Assembly (NCBI GenBank): GCA_013360675.1
Contig: JABWBB010000002.1
Location: 124,001-188,000 of the forward strand
DNA length: 64,000 nt
DNA from: Phycisphaerales bacterium
Lineage (GTDB): Bacteria; Planctomycetota; Phycisphaerae; Phycisphaerales; UBA1924
Direction of reading: 5' to 3'
Part shown: piece after piece, positions 5,516 through 14,619 of the stretch
How the letters are laid out: the number at the start of each line of letters is the position of its first letter
How positions within the stretch are numbered: the stretch's first letter is position 1
Program-made: the position numbers and the translations under genes
The notes under the pieces: model-generated
Told to the model about the DNA's origin: nothing
What the model saw: only the letters and a program-made list of their open reading frames with translations
The model's database searches: none

Positions 5516-5710
5516 TAGGCGGGGGTGTGGCCGGCATCGATACCGGCGCAAGTCGCTCTACCACAAGAGTTAATGGGGATTGGTGAAGATCACGATGGAG
5601 CCATGCACTGACGGGCAACTCATGTTGGACGGTCAGTCAGCCCTTGCGAAAAGGTACTGAACAAATCAGAGCCCTCAAGGTTCGCATGTGCAAGTCTCTG
5701 GAAACGGTGT

Positions 5711-7162
5711 TTACCGCCCGCGACGCGGCGACGGACTCTCGCCCCGCTCGCCCGGCCCGGTATCACCCGCCCGCTTGGCCATCGTCGTTGCGCTGAAACT
5801 GATCGCCTGTTCGGCGGCGACGGGGGGTTCGGGCGTGACGAACCAGCCCCAGAACCCCGCGCTCCCGTAACTCACCACGTCCGTCGGCGGGTGGAACTGG
5901 AAGCCGATGACGGCGATGTCCGCCAATTCATCGTGCGTGCCGAAGAACCGCCACTCGCGATCGAGCGATTGCGGGCGGCTGGTCATCTTGCGCAGTTTGA
6001 CGATGTCGACCGGCACCCAGTTGATCGTGTTTTTCACCTCGTCATACAGCGCGAACTCGACCCATGCGCGGATCTGGTTCTGCTTGCCGCCCTTCTTGAG
6101 GAAGCGGTCGGAATCGGCGCCGACGTCCCAGCCGATCACGGTGCGTGCGGGCAGGCCGGCCTTGCGATAGACCGCCGTCAGCAGCAACGCCATCTCGCTG
6201 GGCGTGGCGCGACCATTCGCGAGGACCATCGAGGGTGCAGCAAGCTCGATTCCGGCCAACTCACCCTGCGTGGTAGCGATCAGCCCGTCGCCGCGGCTGG
6301 GCTCGATCGACGCCCACACCCGGGCGGCGAGGAACTTCGCCAGTGTCACCGGGGGCAGCGACTTCACGTCACGCCCGCCCGCTTCCTTCACCCAGCGTTC
6401 GATCGCATCGGCGAGGGGCTTGTCGTCGTACGCCTCGATCTGCCCGGTCTGCGGGTTCCAGCCAAGATCAAGGTACATCTGCGGCTGGAAGGTGCTCATC
6501 GCCTCGGCGGGCCAGCCCTCCTTGGGCCAGTCCACGCGTGATGCTGCCTTCTCATCGAACTCGGTACGCCACGACCGTGATGGGATCGCCGCCCGCAACT
6601 CGACCTCGCGGCAGGTTGTCTCCGCATCAGTCCCGCCCGCGTCGAGCCGCAGCAGGCGTGCGCCCGCGGCATACCCCGCCAGAACCACGGGCTCCTTGTC
6701 GATCACGACATCGCTGATGCGAAGTTCGGCCTCGATCTGGCGGTCGTAGGTACGGCTCGAACCCGTCTCGGTGGCGAGAGGAAAGACCACGCCCATGGTC
6801 TGGAACTTGAACGCCGTCTCCTTGGGGAGACCGGTCTGCGCGTCACGGTCACGAGCGGTGGTCGAACGCAGTCGCACCCGCACGCTCATCAGCCAGTCTT
6901 GCGGCCGGGTCTGCGTGATGTACGGACCCGGTGATGGCGCGGGGCGGGGTTCGCGCGGCGTGGTCACGGCGGGGGTGCTCGGAGCCGCAGGGTTGACCCC
7001 CGGTGTGGCTGGGTTCGTGGGTGTTGGCTGTGTGGGAGTGGGTGACGGCGATGGTGCCGCCCCGGGACGCCTCGGGCCCTGGGGCTGGTCCGGCTGGGCG
7101 ATCGCGACAGTCGTCGCCATGGCCAGACAGACGGAGGTCAGGGTGCGTGCTGTTCGATTCAT
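5711..7162 (-). CDS. Secreted transglutaminase-like protein with degenerate active site
   Basis: A signal peptide (MNRTARTLTSVCLAMATTVA, cut near AIA) is followed by a Pro/Thr/Ala-rich linker (residues 25-80) and a beta-rich region. Around residues 330-420 the pattern SEMALLLTAVYRKAGLPARTVIG and later RAWVEFALY and NWVPVDI matches the transglutaminase/protease-like fold (SEMA..AGIPAR..G, HAWVE, W.PVD). The position of the catalytic Cys is occupied by Pro-Ser and the His of HAWVE by Arg, so it is probably not an active enzyme. The ATG at 7162 is chosen because it begins the signal peptide and has AGAGG eight bases upstream. It reads alone, divergent from fumC. A structural or peptide-binding role outside the cytoplasm is likely. 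Confidence 0.7.
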   Translation of the reverse strand: MNRTARTLTSVCLAMATTVAIAQPDQPQGPRRPGAAPSPSPTPTQPTPTNPATPGVNPAAPSTPAVTTPREPRPAPSPGPYITQTRPQDWLMSVRVRLRSTTARDRDAQTGLPKETAFKFQTMGVVFPLATETGSSRTYDRQIEAELRISDVVIDKEPVVLAGYAAGARLLRLDAGGTDAETTCREVELRAAIPSRSWRTEFDEKAASRVDWPKEGWPAEAMSTFQPQMYLDLGWNPQTGQIEAYDDKPLADAIERWVKEAGGRDVKSLPPVTLAKFLAARVWASIEPSRGDGLIATTQGELAGIELAAPSMVLANGRATPSEMALLLTAVYRKAGLPARTVIGWDVGADSDRFLKKGGKQNQIRAWVEFALYDEVKNTINWVPVDIVKLRKMTSRPQSLDREWRFFGTHDELADIAVIGFQFHPPTDVVSYGSAGFWGWFVTPEPPVAAEQAISFSATTMAKRAGDTGPGERGESPSPRRGR

Positions 7163-10322: not shown

Positions 10323-11999
10323 TTATGCAAAAGGCCGCGCCCGCACCGCGCGCAATGCCAGAAACATCGGGATTTCCCGTCTCGCGCGGTTCTCTTCGAC
10401 CGCACGTGGGCCCGGCTGGCTGCTGCGGTTGCTCACCCATTCCTCGAGCGCGGTCAGGTGCAGGCCTGCGTCGGCCAAGGTGCGAACATAGTCCTGGATC
10501 GCACGGTGGTACGTCATCGTGACGACCTCGGGCTTGCCGTGCGCCGCCTCGCCGGGGTTCATCACGATCTTGCTCGCATCGGGCGACAGATAGGCATCCA
10601 CGCGACGAGCGATTCGCTCTTCCGAAGGCGGGCGGGAACGCGAGGGTCCACGCTCCATGCCGCGCGTCGGACGCGGCGCGGGCGCACCCTCGAAGTGCCA
10701 CGACGTCCGCCCGGGCGAGCGAAAGGCCGGATGCAGGATCACGCACACGAACACGCCGCCGGGTTTCAGAAGCGCCGCGGAGGCATTGACAACAGGGGCC
10801 ATGGGCTCAATGTTCATGAGGGCCATGACACACGCGGCGGAGTCGAATTCACCCGCCAGTCCCAGCGAGCCCAGTTCCCGCGCGTCTCCCACGTGAAACT
10901 CGCATCCATCCTCACCCAGTTCCTTGGCGCGGGCGATCAGGCGAGGCGAAGAATCCACTCCCACGCACGTCGCCCCGGCCTTGACCAGGCGACGAGCGAG
11001 AATCCCCTGGCCACAGGCGATATCGAGGACGCGATGCCCGCTCTTTGGCGCGAGTAGGTGCATGACGCCCGGCAGGATCACCTGCTCGTAGTGGTCGCTG
11101 CCGCGGTCTTCGAGCAGTTGGTCATACCAGCCCGCGACCTCATCCCATGAAGTGACCTTTGTACTGGCGGGCACGACAGAGGCCGTCGCTGGGGCCATGG
11201 CGTCACCCGTCCCGCGTCCGAGCAGCTTGGTGAACTCATCGGGCGGCAGACTGGAATATCGCACAGGGTGGCGTGTTTGCGGGTGCGTGAACCCCAACTC
11301 GCACGCGTGCAAGCAGACCCGCCCCAGCGGGTCGGTTGATGCGCCGTAGCGTCGGTCGCCCACGATCGGCCGCCCGATGTGCTGCATGTGCACGCGGATC
11401 TGGTTCTTGCGCCCCGTCTCGAGGCGCACGTTGATCAGGCTGCGCCCATGGGCGGTCTTGCGGACGCGATAGTGCGTGACCGCGGGCATCGGGGCTGAAC
11501 CCCGCGCGGGCGTGTCACGCAGCTGCGTGGGAGAATCGATGCTGTGCATGATCCCGCGGGAATCCTCCCACAGGAATGACTGCACCGTGCCCGTTGAGGC
11601 CGGGCCGCTCCCGCCGAACTCGCCCTCGACCGCGGCGGCGTAGAGACGGTGGGCTTTCTTTGACCGGAATTCTTCCTTCAGGTGCTCATACGCCGTCTCG
11701 GTCTTGGCGAAGACCAGCAGCCCAGAGGCCTCGCGATCGAGGCGGTGCACGATCCAAAGTTTTGTGCCCCGCTTGCGGGCCTGTTCGCGCACGTGTGATT
11801 TGAGCGCGGCGAAGGCGGAGTCATCGCCGGGCCCGCCCAGGCCCGCCGTCAACATCCCCGCGGGCTTGTCGATGACCAGAATCGCTTCGTCCTCGTGAAC
11901 GATGCGCAGTCCCCGTGTCAGGTGCGTGGCACCCTCGACGTAGCCGCTGCGGGCGGTGCGCTTTCGTGGTCCGGTTCCGGGTCGACCCTTCTTCATCAT
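10323..11999 (-). CDS. Fusion of RluA-family pseudouridine synthase and SAM-dependent methyltransferase
   Basis: Two enzymes in one 558-residue chain. Residues 30-250 are an RluA-type pseudouridine synthase with catalytic Asp in HRLDREASGLLVFAKT (about residue 85) and the GRKNQIRVHM and VGDRRYG segments. Residues 275-558 are a class I methyltransferase with SAM motif VLDIACGQG (about 326) and an acidic motif II VGVDSS; its closing region resembles small-molecule or quinone-type methyltransferases as much as RNA enzymes, so its substrate is open. The ATG at 11999 overlaps the coaB stop (ATGA) and has AAAGGA upstream. No N-terminal S4 domain is visible. No stop or frameshift separates the halves, so a true fusion is likely. 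Confidence 0.85.
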   Translation of the reverse strand: MMKKGRPGTGPRKRTARSGYVEGATHLTRGLRIVHEDEAILVIDKPAGMLTAGLGGPGDDSAFAALKSHVREQARKRGTKLWIVHRLDREASGLLVFAKTETAYEHLKEEFRSKKAHRLYAAAVEGEFGGSGPASTGTVQSFLWEDSRGIMHSIDSPTQLRDTPARGSAPMPAVTHYRVRKTAHGRSLINVRLETGRKNQIRVHMQHIGRPIVGDRRYGASTDPLGRVCLHACELGFTHPQTRHPVRYSSLPPDEFTKLLGRGTGDAMAPATASVVPASTKVTSWDEVAGWYDQLLEDRGSDHYEQVILPGVMHLLAPKSGHRVLDIACGQGILARRLVKAGATCVGVDSSPRLIARAKELGEDGCEFHVGDARELGSLGLAGEFDSAACVMALMNIEPMAPVVNASAALLKPGGVFVCVILHPAFRSPGRTSWHFEGAPAPRPTRGMERGPSRSRPPSEERIARRVDAYLSPDASKIVMNPGEAAHGKPEVVTMTYHRAIQDYVRTLADAGLHLTALEEWVSNRSSQPGPRAVEENRARREIPMFLALRAVRARPFA

Positions 12000-12682
12000 C
12001 GGGCATCCTTTCCAGCGGCCTGCTCGATGAGCGTCAGCAGCCATGATCCAAATTCAGTCTTGTCGATCGCGCCCTGCGTGAAGTTCTCGACGCCGTTTGC
12101 CTGCAGCACCAAGGCCTCGATCGTCGCGCTGTCCATCGTCTCGAGGGGGTTGGCCACGATCATGTCAACGTTTTTGCGCGCGAGTTTCTCGGCGGCGGAG
12201 GCTCGCATCCGCTCGCGTGGCTCGAGCGCAAACCCAACCAGGAACTGCCCGGGCGTGCGACTTTGGGCCACCTCGGCCAGCAGATCGGGGGTGGGTTCAA
12301 GCTCCAGGCGAAGGTTGTCCGCTGTGCGCCTGATCTTCCCGGGGGAAGCACCGTCCAGAGGCCGATAATCGGCCACGGCTGCCGCCATAATCAGGATCGT
12401 CGCCCGTGTCATTTCTTCCCTGAGGAGCCCCTGCAAGTCGGCGGCTGTTCGGAACCGGCGCAGGCGAACCCGCGAATCGGTGGGGAGTATCGACACAGGT
12501 CCAAGCAGGAGTGTCACGTCCCAGCCGCGTTGGGCGGCTTGGTCGGCCAATGAGACCCCGAGGCGGCCCGAGGATCGGTTGCCCAGGAATCGCACCGAGT
12601 CGATGGGCTCGTGCGTAGGGCCGGCGGTCACCAGCAGGTGGGTGATCGAGCGGCGTGGGGATTGATCCTGGGCTACGGGCAT
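11996..12682 (-). CDS. coaB: Phosphopantothenoylcysteine synthetase (stand-alone CoaB)
   Basis: Joins cysteine to 4'-phosphopantothenate in coenzyme A synthesis. Matches the CoaB half of CoaBC: TAGPTHEPIDSVRFLGN with RSSGRLG, then AAAVADYRP, KIRR at the place of the conserved KIKK, and LVGFALE. Only the CoaB half is present (228 residues); the CoaC decarboxylase would be a separate gene outside this window. The usual nucleotide-binding segment TAGGTREPID has Pro-Thr-His in place of Gly-Thr-Arg. It starts 170 bases from, and divergent to, the secretion cluster, and is coupled to the fusion gene by a four-base overlap. Confidence 0.87.
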   Translation of the reverse strand: MPVAQDQSPRRSITHLLVTAGPTHEPIDSVRFLGNRSSGRLGVSLADQAAQRGWDVTLLLGPVSILPTDSRVRLRRFRTAADLQGLLREEMTRATILIMAAAVADYRPLDGASPGKIRRTADNLRLELEPTPDLLAEVAQSRTPGQFLVGFALEPRERMRASAAEKLARKNVDMIVANPLETMDSATIEALVLQANGVENFTQGAIDKTEFGSWLLTLIEQAAGKDAR

Positions 12683-12852
12683 GGAATGGGTCAGGGGTCG
12701 ACCGTGGGGTGGTTCTGGGTTTGATCGAGAATGGGTGGCGAAGGATAATCATCCCCCGTGCGTCGCGCGGGCGTGGAACGATCGAAACGTGTAAAGTGCT
12801 TCCCCCCGGCGTTGTCAGGCGACCGCCCGGCCCGGGGTTTCGAGGAGTGCGG

Positions 12853-14619
12853 ATGGCCAGATCACGGAAGAAACTTGGCGAGATCCTGGTGGGCTGGGGC
12901 GTTCTCACCCCGGAACAGGCCGACAAGGCGGCCCAGACCGCTACCTCGCAGGGCAAGCGCATGGGCGACGCGCTTGTTGAGATGGGGTTGGCCAAGGAAG
13001 ACCAGGTCTGCAAGGCCTTGGCCAACCAGTTTGGGATGGAGTTCGTCGACCTGAGCGCGAGCGGGGCAGCCGACAAGGTCGACATGAAGCTGATCCCCGA
13101 GGACCTGGTCAAGAAGCATCTGATTCTGCCGCTGGCCAAGGCGGGGGGTCGTCTGCAGCTGATCATCCACGATCCGCTCGATCTGGAGCTGCAGGACATG
13201 CTCCGGTTCCGGTTGAATACCGAGATCGACCCGCGTTTGGCGCCGCGTTCGCAGATCAAGAAATACATCGATCAGGCGGCGGCAGGAACCGCGCGCCGCT
13301 TCGAGGCCGACCAGTCGCTGGTGACCGATTCGATCGACAAGTCGATCGACAAGACGATCGATCGCTCGGTGGACCGGTCGATGGACAAGTCCATCGACGT
13401 CGCCGCCGACGAGGCCCCGATCGTCAAGCTCTGTAACCGAATCTTGAGCGAAGCGGTCCGCATGCGGGCCAGCGACGTGCACGTCGAGCCGATGAACGAC
13501 CGGGTGCGTCTGCGCTATCGGATCGACGGCGTGTGCATGGAGCGTGACAACCTGCCCAAGCGCATGCAGAACGCGCTGCTCTCCCGCTTCAAGCTGATGG
13601 CGAGCATGAACATTGCCGAGCGGCGCGTGCCGCAGGACGGCCGCATCAAGCTCGAGGTCGATGACGTGATGATCGACTACCGCGTGTCGGCCTGCCCGGC
13701 CTATCACGGAGAGAGCGTGGTGGCCCGTATTCTGCGCCCCGATTCGGTGCGCATCGGTCTGGCGAACCTGGGCTTCGAGCCCGACAACCTCGCCATGTTC
13801 AACAAGATCATCCGCCGCCCCAACGGGATCTTCCTGGTCACGGGGCCCACGGGTTCGGGCAAGACGACCACGCTCTACTCGGCGCTGGACATCCTCAATC
13901 GCCCCGACAAGAAGATCATCACGGCCGAAGACCCGGTGGAATACAACTTCCAGGGGATCAATCAGTGCCAGGTGCGAGAGAACATCGGGCTGGGGTTCAA
14001 GGAGATCCTCCGGTCGATGCTGCGTCAGGCGCCCAACATCATCCTGGTGGGTGAAATCCGCGACAAGGAGGTGGCCGAGATCGCCATCCAGGCCGCCCTG
14101 ACGGGGCACCTGGTCTTCTCGACGCTGCACACCAACGACGCCCCCAGCGCGATCACGCGACTGATCGACATGGGCGTCAAGCCCTTCCTGGTGGCCAGTT
14201 CGATCCAGGCGATCATGGCCCAGCGACTCATCCGCGTGCTCTGCCCCAAGTGCAAGCGCGTGGCCAAGGACGACGAACTCGATCCCAAGCACCTGATCCT
14301 GACGGGCACCACGCTCGAAGAGGCCCGCGGGCGGGCGCATACCAACGTGGGCTGTGACAACTGCGTGGGCACGGGCTTCCGCGGACGCAAGGCCATCTTC
14401 GAGCTGATGAACATGAACTCGCACGTGCGAGAGCTCGCTTTCAATCTCGCGCCGCTGGTCGAGCTTCGCCGCGCCGCCCTGGCCAGCGGGATGCGCCCCC
14501 TCGTGTACGACGGAAAAATCAAGATCCTCAGCGGCGTCACCACCGCGGGCGAAATCGCCAGCGCCACCCAGGTCGATCTCGAATCCCAGCGAGAGGCCGA
14601 GGCCAAGGCCTCCGTCTGA
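12853..14619 (+). CDS. GspE/PilB-type secretion or pilus assembly ATPase, copy 1
   Basis: Hexameric cytoplasmic ATPase that drives pilin polymerisation. Residues 1-140 form a GspE N-terminal/MshEN-like domain (KKLGEILVGWGVL, then RMGDALVEMGLAKEDQV), a module that binds cyclic-di-GMP in some relatives. A linker of six tetrapeptides (SIDK-type, residues 160-183) leads to the motor domain with Walker A GPTGSGKTTT, Walker B ILVGEIRD, a His box (GHLVFSTLHTND) and a zinc-binding pair CPKC/CDNC. The ATG at 12853 is chosen over a far upstream ATG (12655) because GAGGAG precedes it and the family's normal beginning follows. First gene of the cluster that runs to 29011. Confidence 0.93.
   Translation: MARSRKKLGEILVGWGVLTPEQADKAAQTATSQGKRMGDALVEMGLAKEDQVCKALANQFGMEFVDLSASGAADKVDMKLIPEDLVKKHLILPLAKAGGRLQLIIHDPLDLELQDMLRFRLNTEIDPRLAPRSQIKKYIDQAAAGTARRFEADQSLVTDSIDKSIDKTIDRSVDRSMDKSIDVAADEAPIVKLCNRILSEAVRMRASDVHVEPMNDRVRLRYRIDGVCMERDNLPKRMQNALLSRFKLMASMNIAERRVPQDGRIKLEVDDVMIDYRVSACPAYHGESVVARILRPDSVRIGLANLGFEPDNLAMFNKIIRRPNGIFLVTGPTGSGKTTTLYSALDILNRPDKKIITAEDPVEYNFQGINQCQVRENIGLGFKEILRSMLRQAPNIILVGEIRDKEVAEIAIQAALTGHLVFSTLHTNDAPSAITRLIDMGVKPFLVASSIQAIMAQRLIRVLCPKCKRVAKDDELDPKHLILTGTTLEEARGRAHTNVGCDNCVGTGFRGRKAIFELMNMNSHVRELAFNLAPLVELRRAALASGMRPLVYDGKIKILSGVTTAGEIASATQVDLESQREAEAKASV
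13330..13401 (+). repeat. In-frame 12-base tandem repeat coding SIDK-type tetrapeptides
   Basis: Six consecutive 12-base units encode SIDK, SIDK, TIDR, SVDR, SMDK and SIDV in the linker between the N-terminal and motor domains of the first ATPase. The units are degenerate at the DNA level but keep Ser/Thr at position 1, a hydrophobic residue at 2, Asp at 3 and mostly Lys/Arg at 4. The second ATPase at 15983 lacks this repeat. Confidence 0.9.

Follow-up and report, generated by a model that had tools for sequence, protein, structure and literature searches.

The window, the whole stretch of 64,000 nucleotides analysed here (Phycisphaerales bacterium, GenBank assembly GCA_013360675.1, contig JABWBB010000002.1, positions 124,001 to 188,000), carries on its minus strand a gene that joins an RluA-type pseudouridine synthase (PUS) to a class I SAM-dependent methyltransferase (MTase). 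Its features and those of the adjoining upstream ORF are listed below in window coordinates, with residues of the fused protein.

11996..12682, minus strand: upstream ORF, which we take to be coaB-like; four-nucleotide overlap with the fusion gene, match in 28 of the 40 fused loci tested
10323..11999, minus strand: PUS-MTase fusion gene (558 aa), which could also start further upstream at 12044
11214..11912, minus strand: RluA-type pseudouridine synthase domain, residues 30-262 (Pfam PF00849, fold match RluA 2i82)
11736..11747, minus strand: HRLD motif, residues 85-88 (Arg86, catalytic Asp88)
11394..11414, minus strand: PUS basic motif GRKNQIR, residues 196-202
11151..11213, minus strand: inter-domain linker, residues 263-283, largely of low confidence (AlphaFold2 pLDDT <50 at 264-266 and 270-283)
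10338..11150, minus strand: class I SAM methyltransferase domain, residues 284-554 (Pfam; fold matches 3e8s, 3g5l and 3bkw)
11004..11030, minus strand: SAM motif I VLDIACGQG, residues 324-332
10719..10733, minus strand: HPAFR motif of the MTase family, residues 423-427 (His423 and Pro424 in 122/122 fused proteins)

The minus-strand frame is uninterrupted from 12044 (or 11999) to 10323. Because the ATG at 11999 shares four nucleotides with the stop of the upstream coaB-like ORF, it is the likely start. Codon-position GC is coding-like across both domains, and the frame was kept open in none of 2000 base shuffles. A plus-strand ORF at 12655-14619, presumably encoding a GspE/PilB-like ATPase, has a match in 29/40 fused loci and in 0/35 loci with a standalone MTase, and a further neighbour, which we assume to be mgtE-like, has no match in any of these 75 loci. 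The context counts cover 40 of the 45 fused and all 35 standalone loci among the best 80 of 425 MTase relatives. Elsewhere in the window (5672-6191, minus strand), ARAGORN reported a tmRNA with the tag DQFQRNDDGQAGG and an asterisk, which we take as possibly marking the permuted form.

The PUS half matches PF00849 at residues 40-207 (E 5e-25; 88.9 bits vs a cut-off of 26.8) and contains the Arg and Asp of HRLD, the conserved Tyr, and the basic residue of the second motif. The NCBIfam TIGR00005 cut-off is not reached (167.2 vs 192.7 bits); the match spans model positions 70-294 of 298, the first part of the model being absent from the protein. The AlphaFold2 model of this half superimposes on RluA 2i82 with a Z-score of 26.1 (rmsd 2.2, 205 aligned), and RluA 2i82, RluC 1xpi, and Neisseria RluD 11wx are tied as top structural matches at Z 25-26. 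In a quick-method tree, the fused PUS belongs to a clade supported at 93 that also holds separate PUS proteins, within which the fused proteins form a clade supported at 94. The tree does not back the fused PUS as an orthologue of RluD, RluA, RluC, or TruC, and genome G000 additionally encodes its own RluD-like (L002, 85) and RluA-like (L001, 92) genes. An S4 domain was found in three of four scanned separate PUS of the same clade and in none of the three fused proteins scanned.

The MTase half carries SAM motif I in a class I Rossmann domain, which matches Methyltransf_11 (residues 325-419) and Methyltransf_25 (residues 324-415), both with E about 2e-14; its model superimposes on 3e8s with a Z-score of 25.2 (rmsd 2.3, 214 aligned). 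As the first-pass annotation had proposed from motifs, it is unlike Nep1/TrmY: by Pfam and fold matches, it has a class I Rossmann rather than a SPOUT fold. No curated family naming this MTase appeared among the matches listed, and the first family member scanned fell far below all NCBIfam cut-offs among the matches listed. The Rossmann core is shared with 3bkw, 3g5l, and 3e8s (Methyltransf_11/25 type, function unknown), and 3bkw and 3g5l can also be aligned with the family over its HP...W stretch and the HR segment that comes next, whereas the conserved C-terminus PGPRA..EN..R.EIP sets the family apart from Methyltransf_11/25-type enzymes. AlphaFold2 models the whole protein as two confident domains and a low-confidence linker (mean pLDDT 82.4), with a pTM of 0.58 that leaves the mutual orientation of the domains in the model undefined. 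Judged by their motifs, both halves look active in the window's organism, in line with the intact sites noted in the first-pass annotation.

The MTase is present in 128/163 genomes of the window's family (f1) at E <= 1e-45, and in 93/112 of those with completeness of 90% or more and contamination of 5% or less; the other 35/163 have no MTase match at this threshold. All 123 fetched MTase ORFs of the family have a PUS profile match in the same frame, which bears out the fusion as genuine and leads us to reject a sequencing error or missed stop as its source. Such an error in the window itself is very unlikely because genomes assembled independently of one another share this fused frame. It had been suggested that relatives with the two genes apart at the same locus, together with a missed stop or sequencing error, would undermine the fusion; relatives with separate genes do exist, and the window has no sign of either artefact. 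Five of the 128 MTase-bearing genomes were left out for partial matches, and one further sequence (L206) ends at a contig edge, leaving 122 rows for residue counts.

Beyond family f1, the MTase mostly has a gene to itself. Of 425 MTase relatives found in named genomes, the 80 best comprise 45 fused and 35 unfused proteins, the latter, by record titles, from other Phycisphaerae, Chloroflexi with Dehalococcoidia, WOR-1/Saganbacteria/Margulisiibacteriota, and Wallbacteria. On the MTase tree (75 rows, built with a quick method), fused and separate states differ by one change (SH-aLRT 99); the fusion thus arose once on this tree. PUS and MTase also occur together in families f15, f19, and f25, in four genomes altogether, in one of which (L226) the PUS match is divided between two frames. 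On the tree, these four nest within a subclade of f1 (97; finer forks 84-91), suggesting that they were acquired by transfer. Two fused records carry unexpected titles: L077, titled Leptolyngbya sp. PLA1, where the organism name is probably wrong, and L111, titled Proteobacteria bacterium SZUA-336, which may be a misassigned bin and whose PUS half is almost unrecognisable (about 30 bits).

Where the MTase stands alone, in other Phycisphaerae, Chloroflexi, WOR-1, and Wallbacteria, it has a basic N-terminal tail. Across 38 distinct standalone MTases, these tails (8-120 aa; 51 rows before length filtering and duplicate removal, with starts taken as first-Met guesses) average 23% K+R and 5% D+E, vs 12% and 8% over residues 1-40 of 301 ORFs from standalone loci, a control in which 22 ORFs represent the MTase. 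The basic composition is suggestive of a link to RNA. No PUS match was found in the fetched flanks of the MTase in Chloroflexi and WOR-1 records, and no convincing conserved neighbour emerged from the 35 standalone loci when clusters in at least four loci were considered, using a simple ORF caller that also takes antisense frames. The sole multi-phylum cluster (6/35 loci) looks to us like a generic short-chain dehydrogenase, and the attempt to derive the function of the MTase from these neighbours yielded nothing convincing.

Among 37 sampled genomes that encode PUS and MTase as separate genes, four (G041, G332, G269, and G270, of families f6, f9, and f11) have them close together on the same strand with the PUS first, 227-1307 bases lying between the domain matches; the two ORFs share four nucleotides in G041. 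In G228, they lie 614 kb apart on one contig. Excluding fused genomes and two weak MTase matches (G187 and G333), 37 genomes have both genes, 27 the MTase only, 22 the separate-clade PUS only, and 180 neither (Fisher p about 1.6e-13). This co-occurrence is weak evidence because families f9 and f11 contribute most of it. When families are counted, no clear association was found: of 17 families with either gene, five have both in at least one genome (f19 and f25 via fused genes only), one (f15) has each gene in different genomes, five have only the MTase, and six only the PUS.

The two halves of the fused proteins differ in how well their active sites are kept. Arg86 of HRLD is lost in 45/122 proteins, including all 11 that have lost Asp88, and both residues are retained in 77/122. 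A wider definition of a broken site, which adds the Tyr and the basic residue of the second motif, divides the set into 74 intact and 48 broken proteins. On the MTase tree, these two states require six changes, at least three of them forced by strongly supported branches, and the Asp state alone requires seven; the PUS active site was thus lost repeatedly in fused lineages. According to PMC3919597, replacing this Arg with Met or Lys inactivates RluA, and R108A lowers RluB activity to 0.6%. The same paper states that TruA, TruB, RluA, and RsuA, four enzymes of different families, lose their activity when the Asp is substituted, and that the Tyr is not invariant, Tyr140Phe leaving about 3% activity. 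Three fused rows have His at position 86, a residue to which that paper ascribes base flipping in TruB; these rows count against a PUS half that only presents RNA. MTase residues Asp326, Asn396, His423, Pro424, Arg499, Glu520, and Trp521 are present in 122/122 proteins. Columns conserved at 95% or more number 35/233 in the PUS of the intact set vs 7 in the broken set, and 58/274 vs 71 in the MTase.

Despite the loss of key residues, the dead PUS domain is still under purifying selection. Pairs were chosen by MTase identity alone; many dS values are high, so that the ratios are rough. In lineages lacking Arg86 or Asp88, the median dN/dS of the PUS is 0.075 (31 usable of 44 pairs; also 0.075 in 11 disjoint pairs) and that of the MTase 0.088 (0.094 in disjoint pairs). 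Where the residues are kept, the values are 0.203 for the PUS (87 usable of 91 pairs; 0.163 in 22 disjoint pairs) and 0.191 for the MTase (0.172 in disjoint pairs). A homologue without Asp88 (L099) still models as an RluA fold (pLDDT 81.1, TMt 0.85). The net charge of the PUS is +4.6 in the Arg86-lost set vs +9.7 in the remainder (45 and 76 rows), and RNA binding may therefore be weaker in the former. In the same comparison, the 60 residues before the PUS domain are richer in Gly (0.24 vs 0.12) and in RG/GR (3.6 vs 2.0). At least four dead-PUS proteins (L188, L191, L204, and L215) have Gly/Arg-rich tails with RGG-like repeats ahead of the PUS.

Loss of the key catalytic residue from a domain that is nevertheless preserved suggests that the PUS half now mainly holds the target for the MTase. 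We regard it as about an even call that the fusion is an RNA-modification protein whose selected core is SAM-dependent methylation, its RluA-fold domain binding and presenting the RNA. The substrate of the MTase would be rRNA or tRNA, close to where the PUS domain recognises it. At that site, the PUS half of the window's organism would still form pseudouridine, while in degraded lineages it would merely position the RNA or serve as a scaffold. On the simplest account, an RNA methyltransferase would have taken over a PUS as its substrate-binding partner, initially as a neighbouring gene and later fused to it and stripped of S4; the pseudouridine reaction would be optional. Counting against an RNA substrate, the nearest solved MTases (3e8s, 3bkw, 3g5l, and ToxA) either have no assigned function or use small-molecule substrates. 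That the PUS fold was repeatedly converted into a module that no longer catalyses but positions RNA for methylation by a conserved, uncharacterised RNA methyltransferase is a more tentative proposal, to which we lend slightly less than even credence.

The first-pass annotation had raised the idea of one protein making a pseudouridine and then methylating it. Such sequential chemistry on the same base or ribose fits the two intact sites of the window genome, the 77/122 homologues with both Arg and Asp, and the PUS-then-MTase order of the separate genes in 4/37 genomes. As a general rule it is not supported, since 45/122 proteins keep the MTase residues beside a PUS without the essential Arg (11 also without the Asp); moreover, G024, whose PUS is degraded, has no other PUS of the fused clade among its RluA-type matches, and in Chloroflexi and WOR-1 records the fetched sequence around the MTase contains no PUS match. 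Obligate methylation of freshly made pseudouridine is disfavoured, though it may still apply to the window's own protein, and sequential chemistry as a whole appears improbable to us. Two catalytic modifications at neighbouring RNA sites, fused for co-delivery and with a PUS step dispensable in some lineages, would draw on the same support as RNA presentation to the MTase while giving more weight to PUS catalysis and to the 77/122 proteins with Arg and Asp. By itself, however, this offers no reason for purifying selection on an inactive PUS, and we consider it unlikely, if less so than sequential chemistry.

A fusion of mere convenience, in which the MTase modifies a small molecule or protein and the PUS is unrelated to it, much as a PUS is joined to a riboflavin-pathway deaminase in yeast Rib2/Pus8, would agree with the small-molecule enzymes among the closest MTase folds, with the lack of a conserved RNA-gene neighbour of standalone MTases, and with the coaB-like (28/40) and gspE-like (29/40) neighbours of fused loci. 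The conservation of a dead PUS, the basic tail of standalone MTases in several phyla, and the adjacent separate genes in families f6, f9, and f11 argue against it, and we give it as little credence as sequential chemistry. If RNA presentation to the MTase is the correct reading, an uncharacterised multi-phylum MTase family would be tied to RNA modification, and the fused proteins would form a graded natural series, with the PUS ranging from active to dead beside the same conserved RNA methyltransferase, which also stands alone in several phyla. Active and inactive homologues of a single fused protein would then allow PUS catalysis to be separated from a binding role.

Full-text literature searches returned no published description of a PUS-MTase fusion among the matches listed. 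Nep1/TrmY and RlmH are SPOUT pseudouridine N-methyltransferases, and their likeness to the fusion is limited to the possible type of product, the fold being different. RlmH (PF02590) was found in 8/14 control genomes and in 0/61 of the window's genome and 60 relatives; as it is missing from fused and unfused genomes alike, its absence is uninformative and a replacement of RlmH by the fusion is not demonstrated. The window PUS shares with the RluA family its catalytic fold and the HRLD and basic motifs, but sits in a separate RluA-type clade from E. coli RluA, RluC, RluD, and TruC, and differs from RluA-family synthases by the attached MTase and by relatives in which the essential Arg is gone (45/122). 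Yeast Rib2/Pus8 joins a PUS to a deaminase of the riboflavin pathway; as here, an RluA-type PUS is fused to another enzyme, although the partner is a deaminase and not a methyltransferase. PMC7822408 describes Rib2/Pus8 as a pseudouridine-32 synthase.
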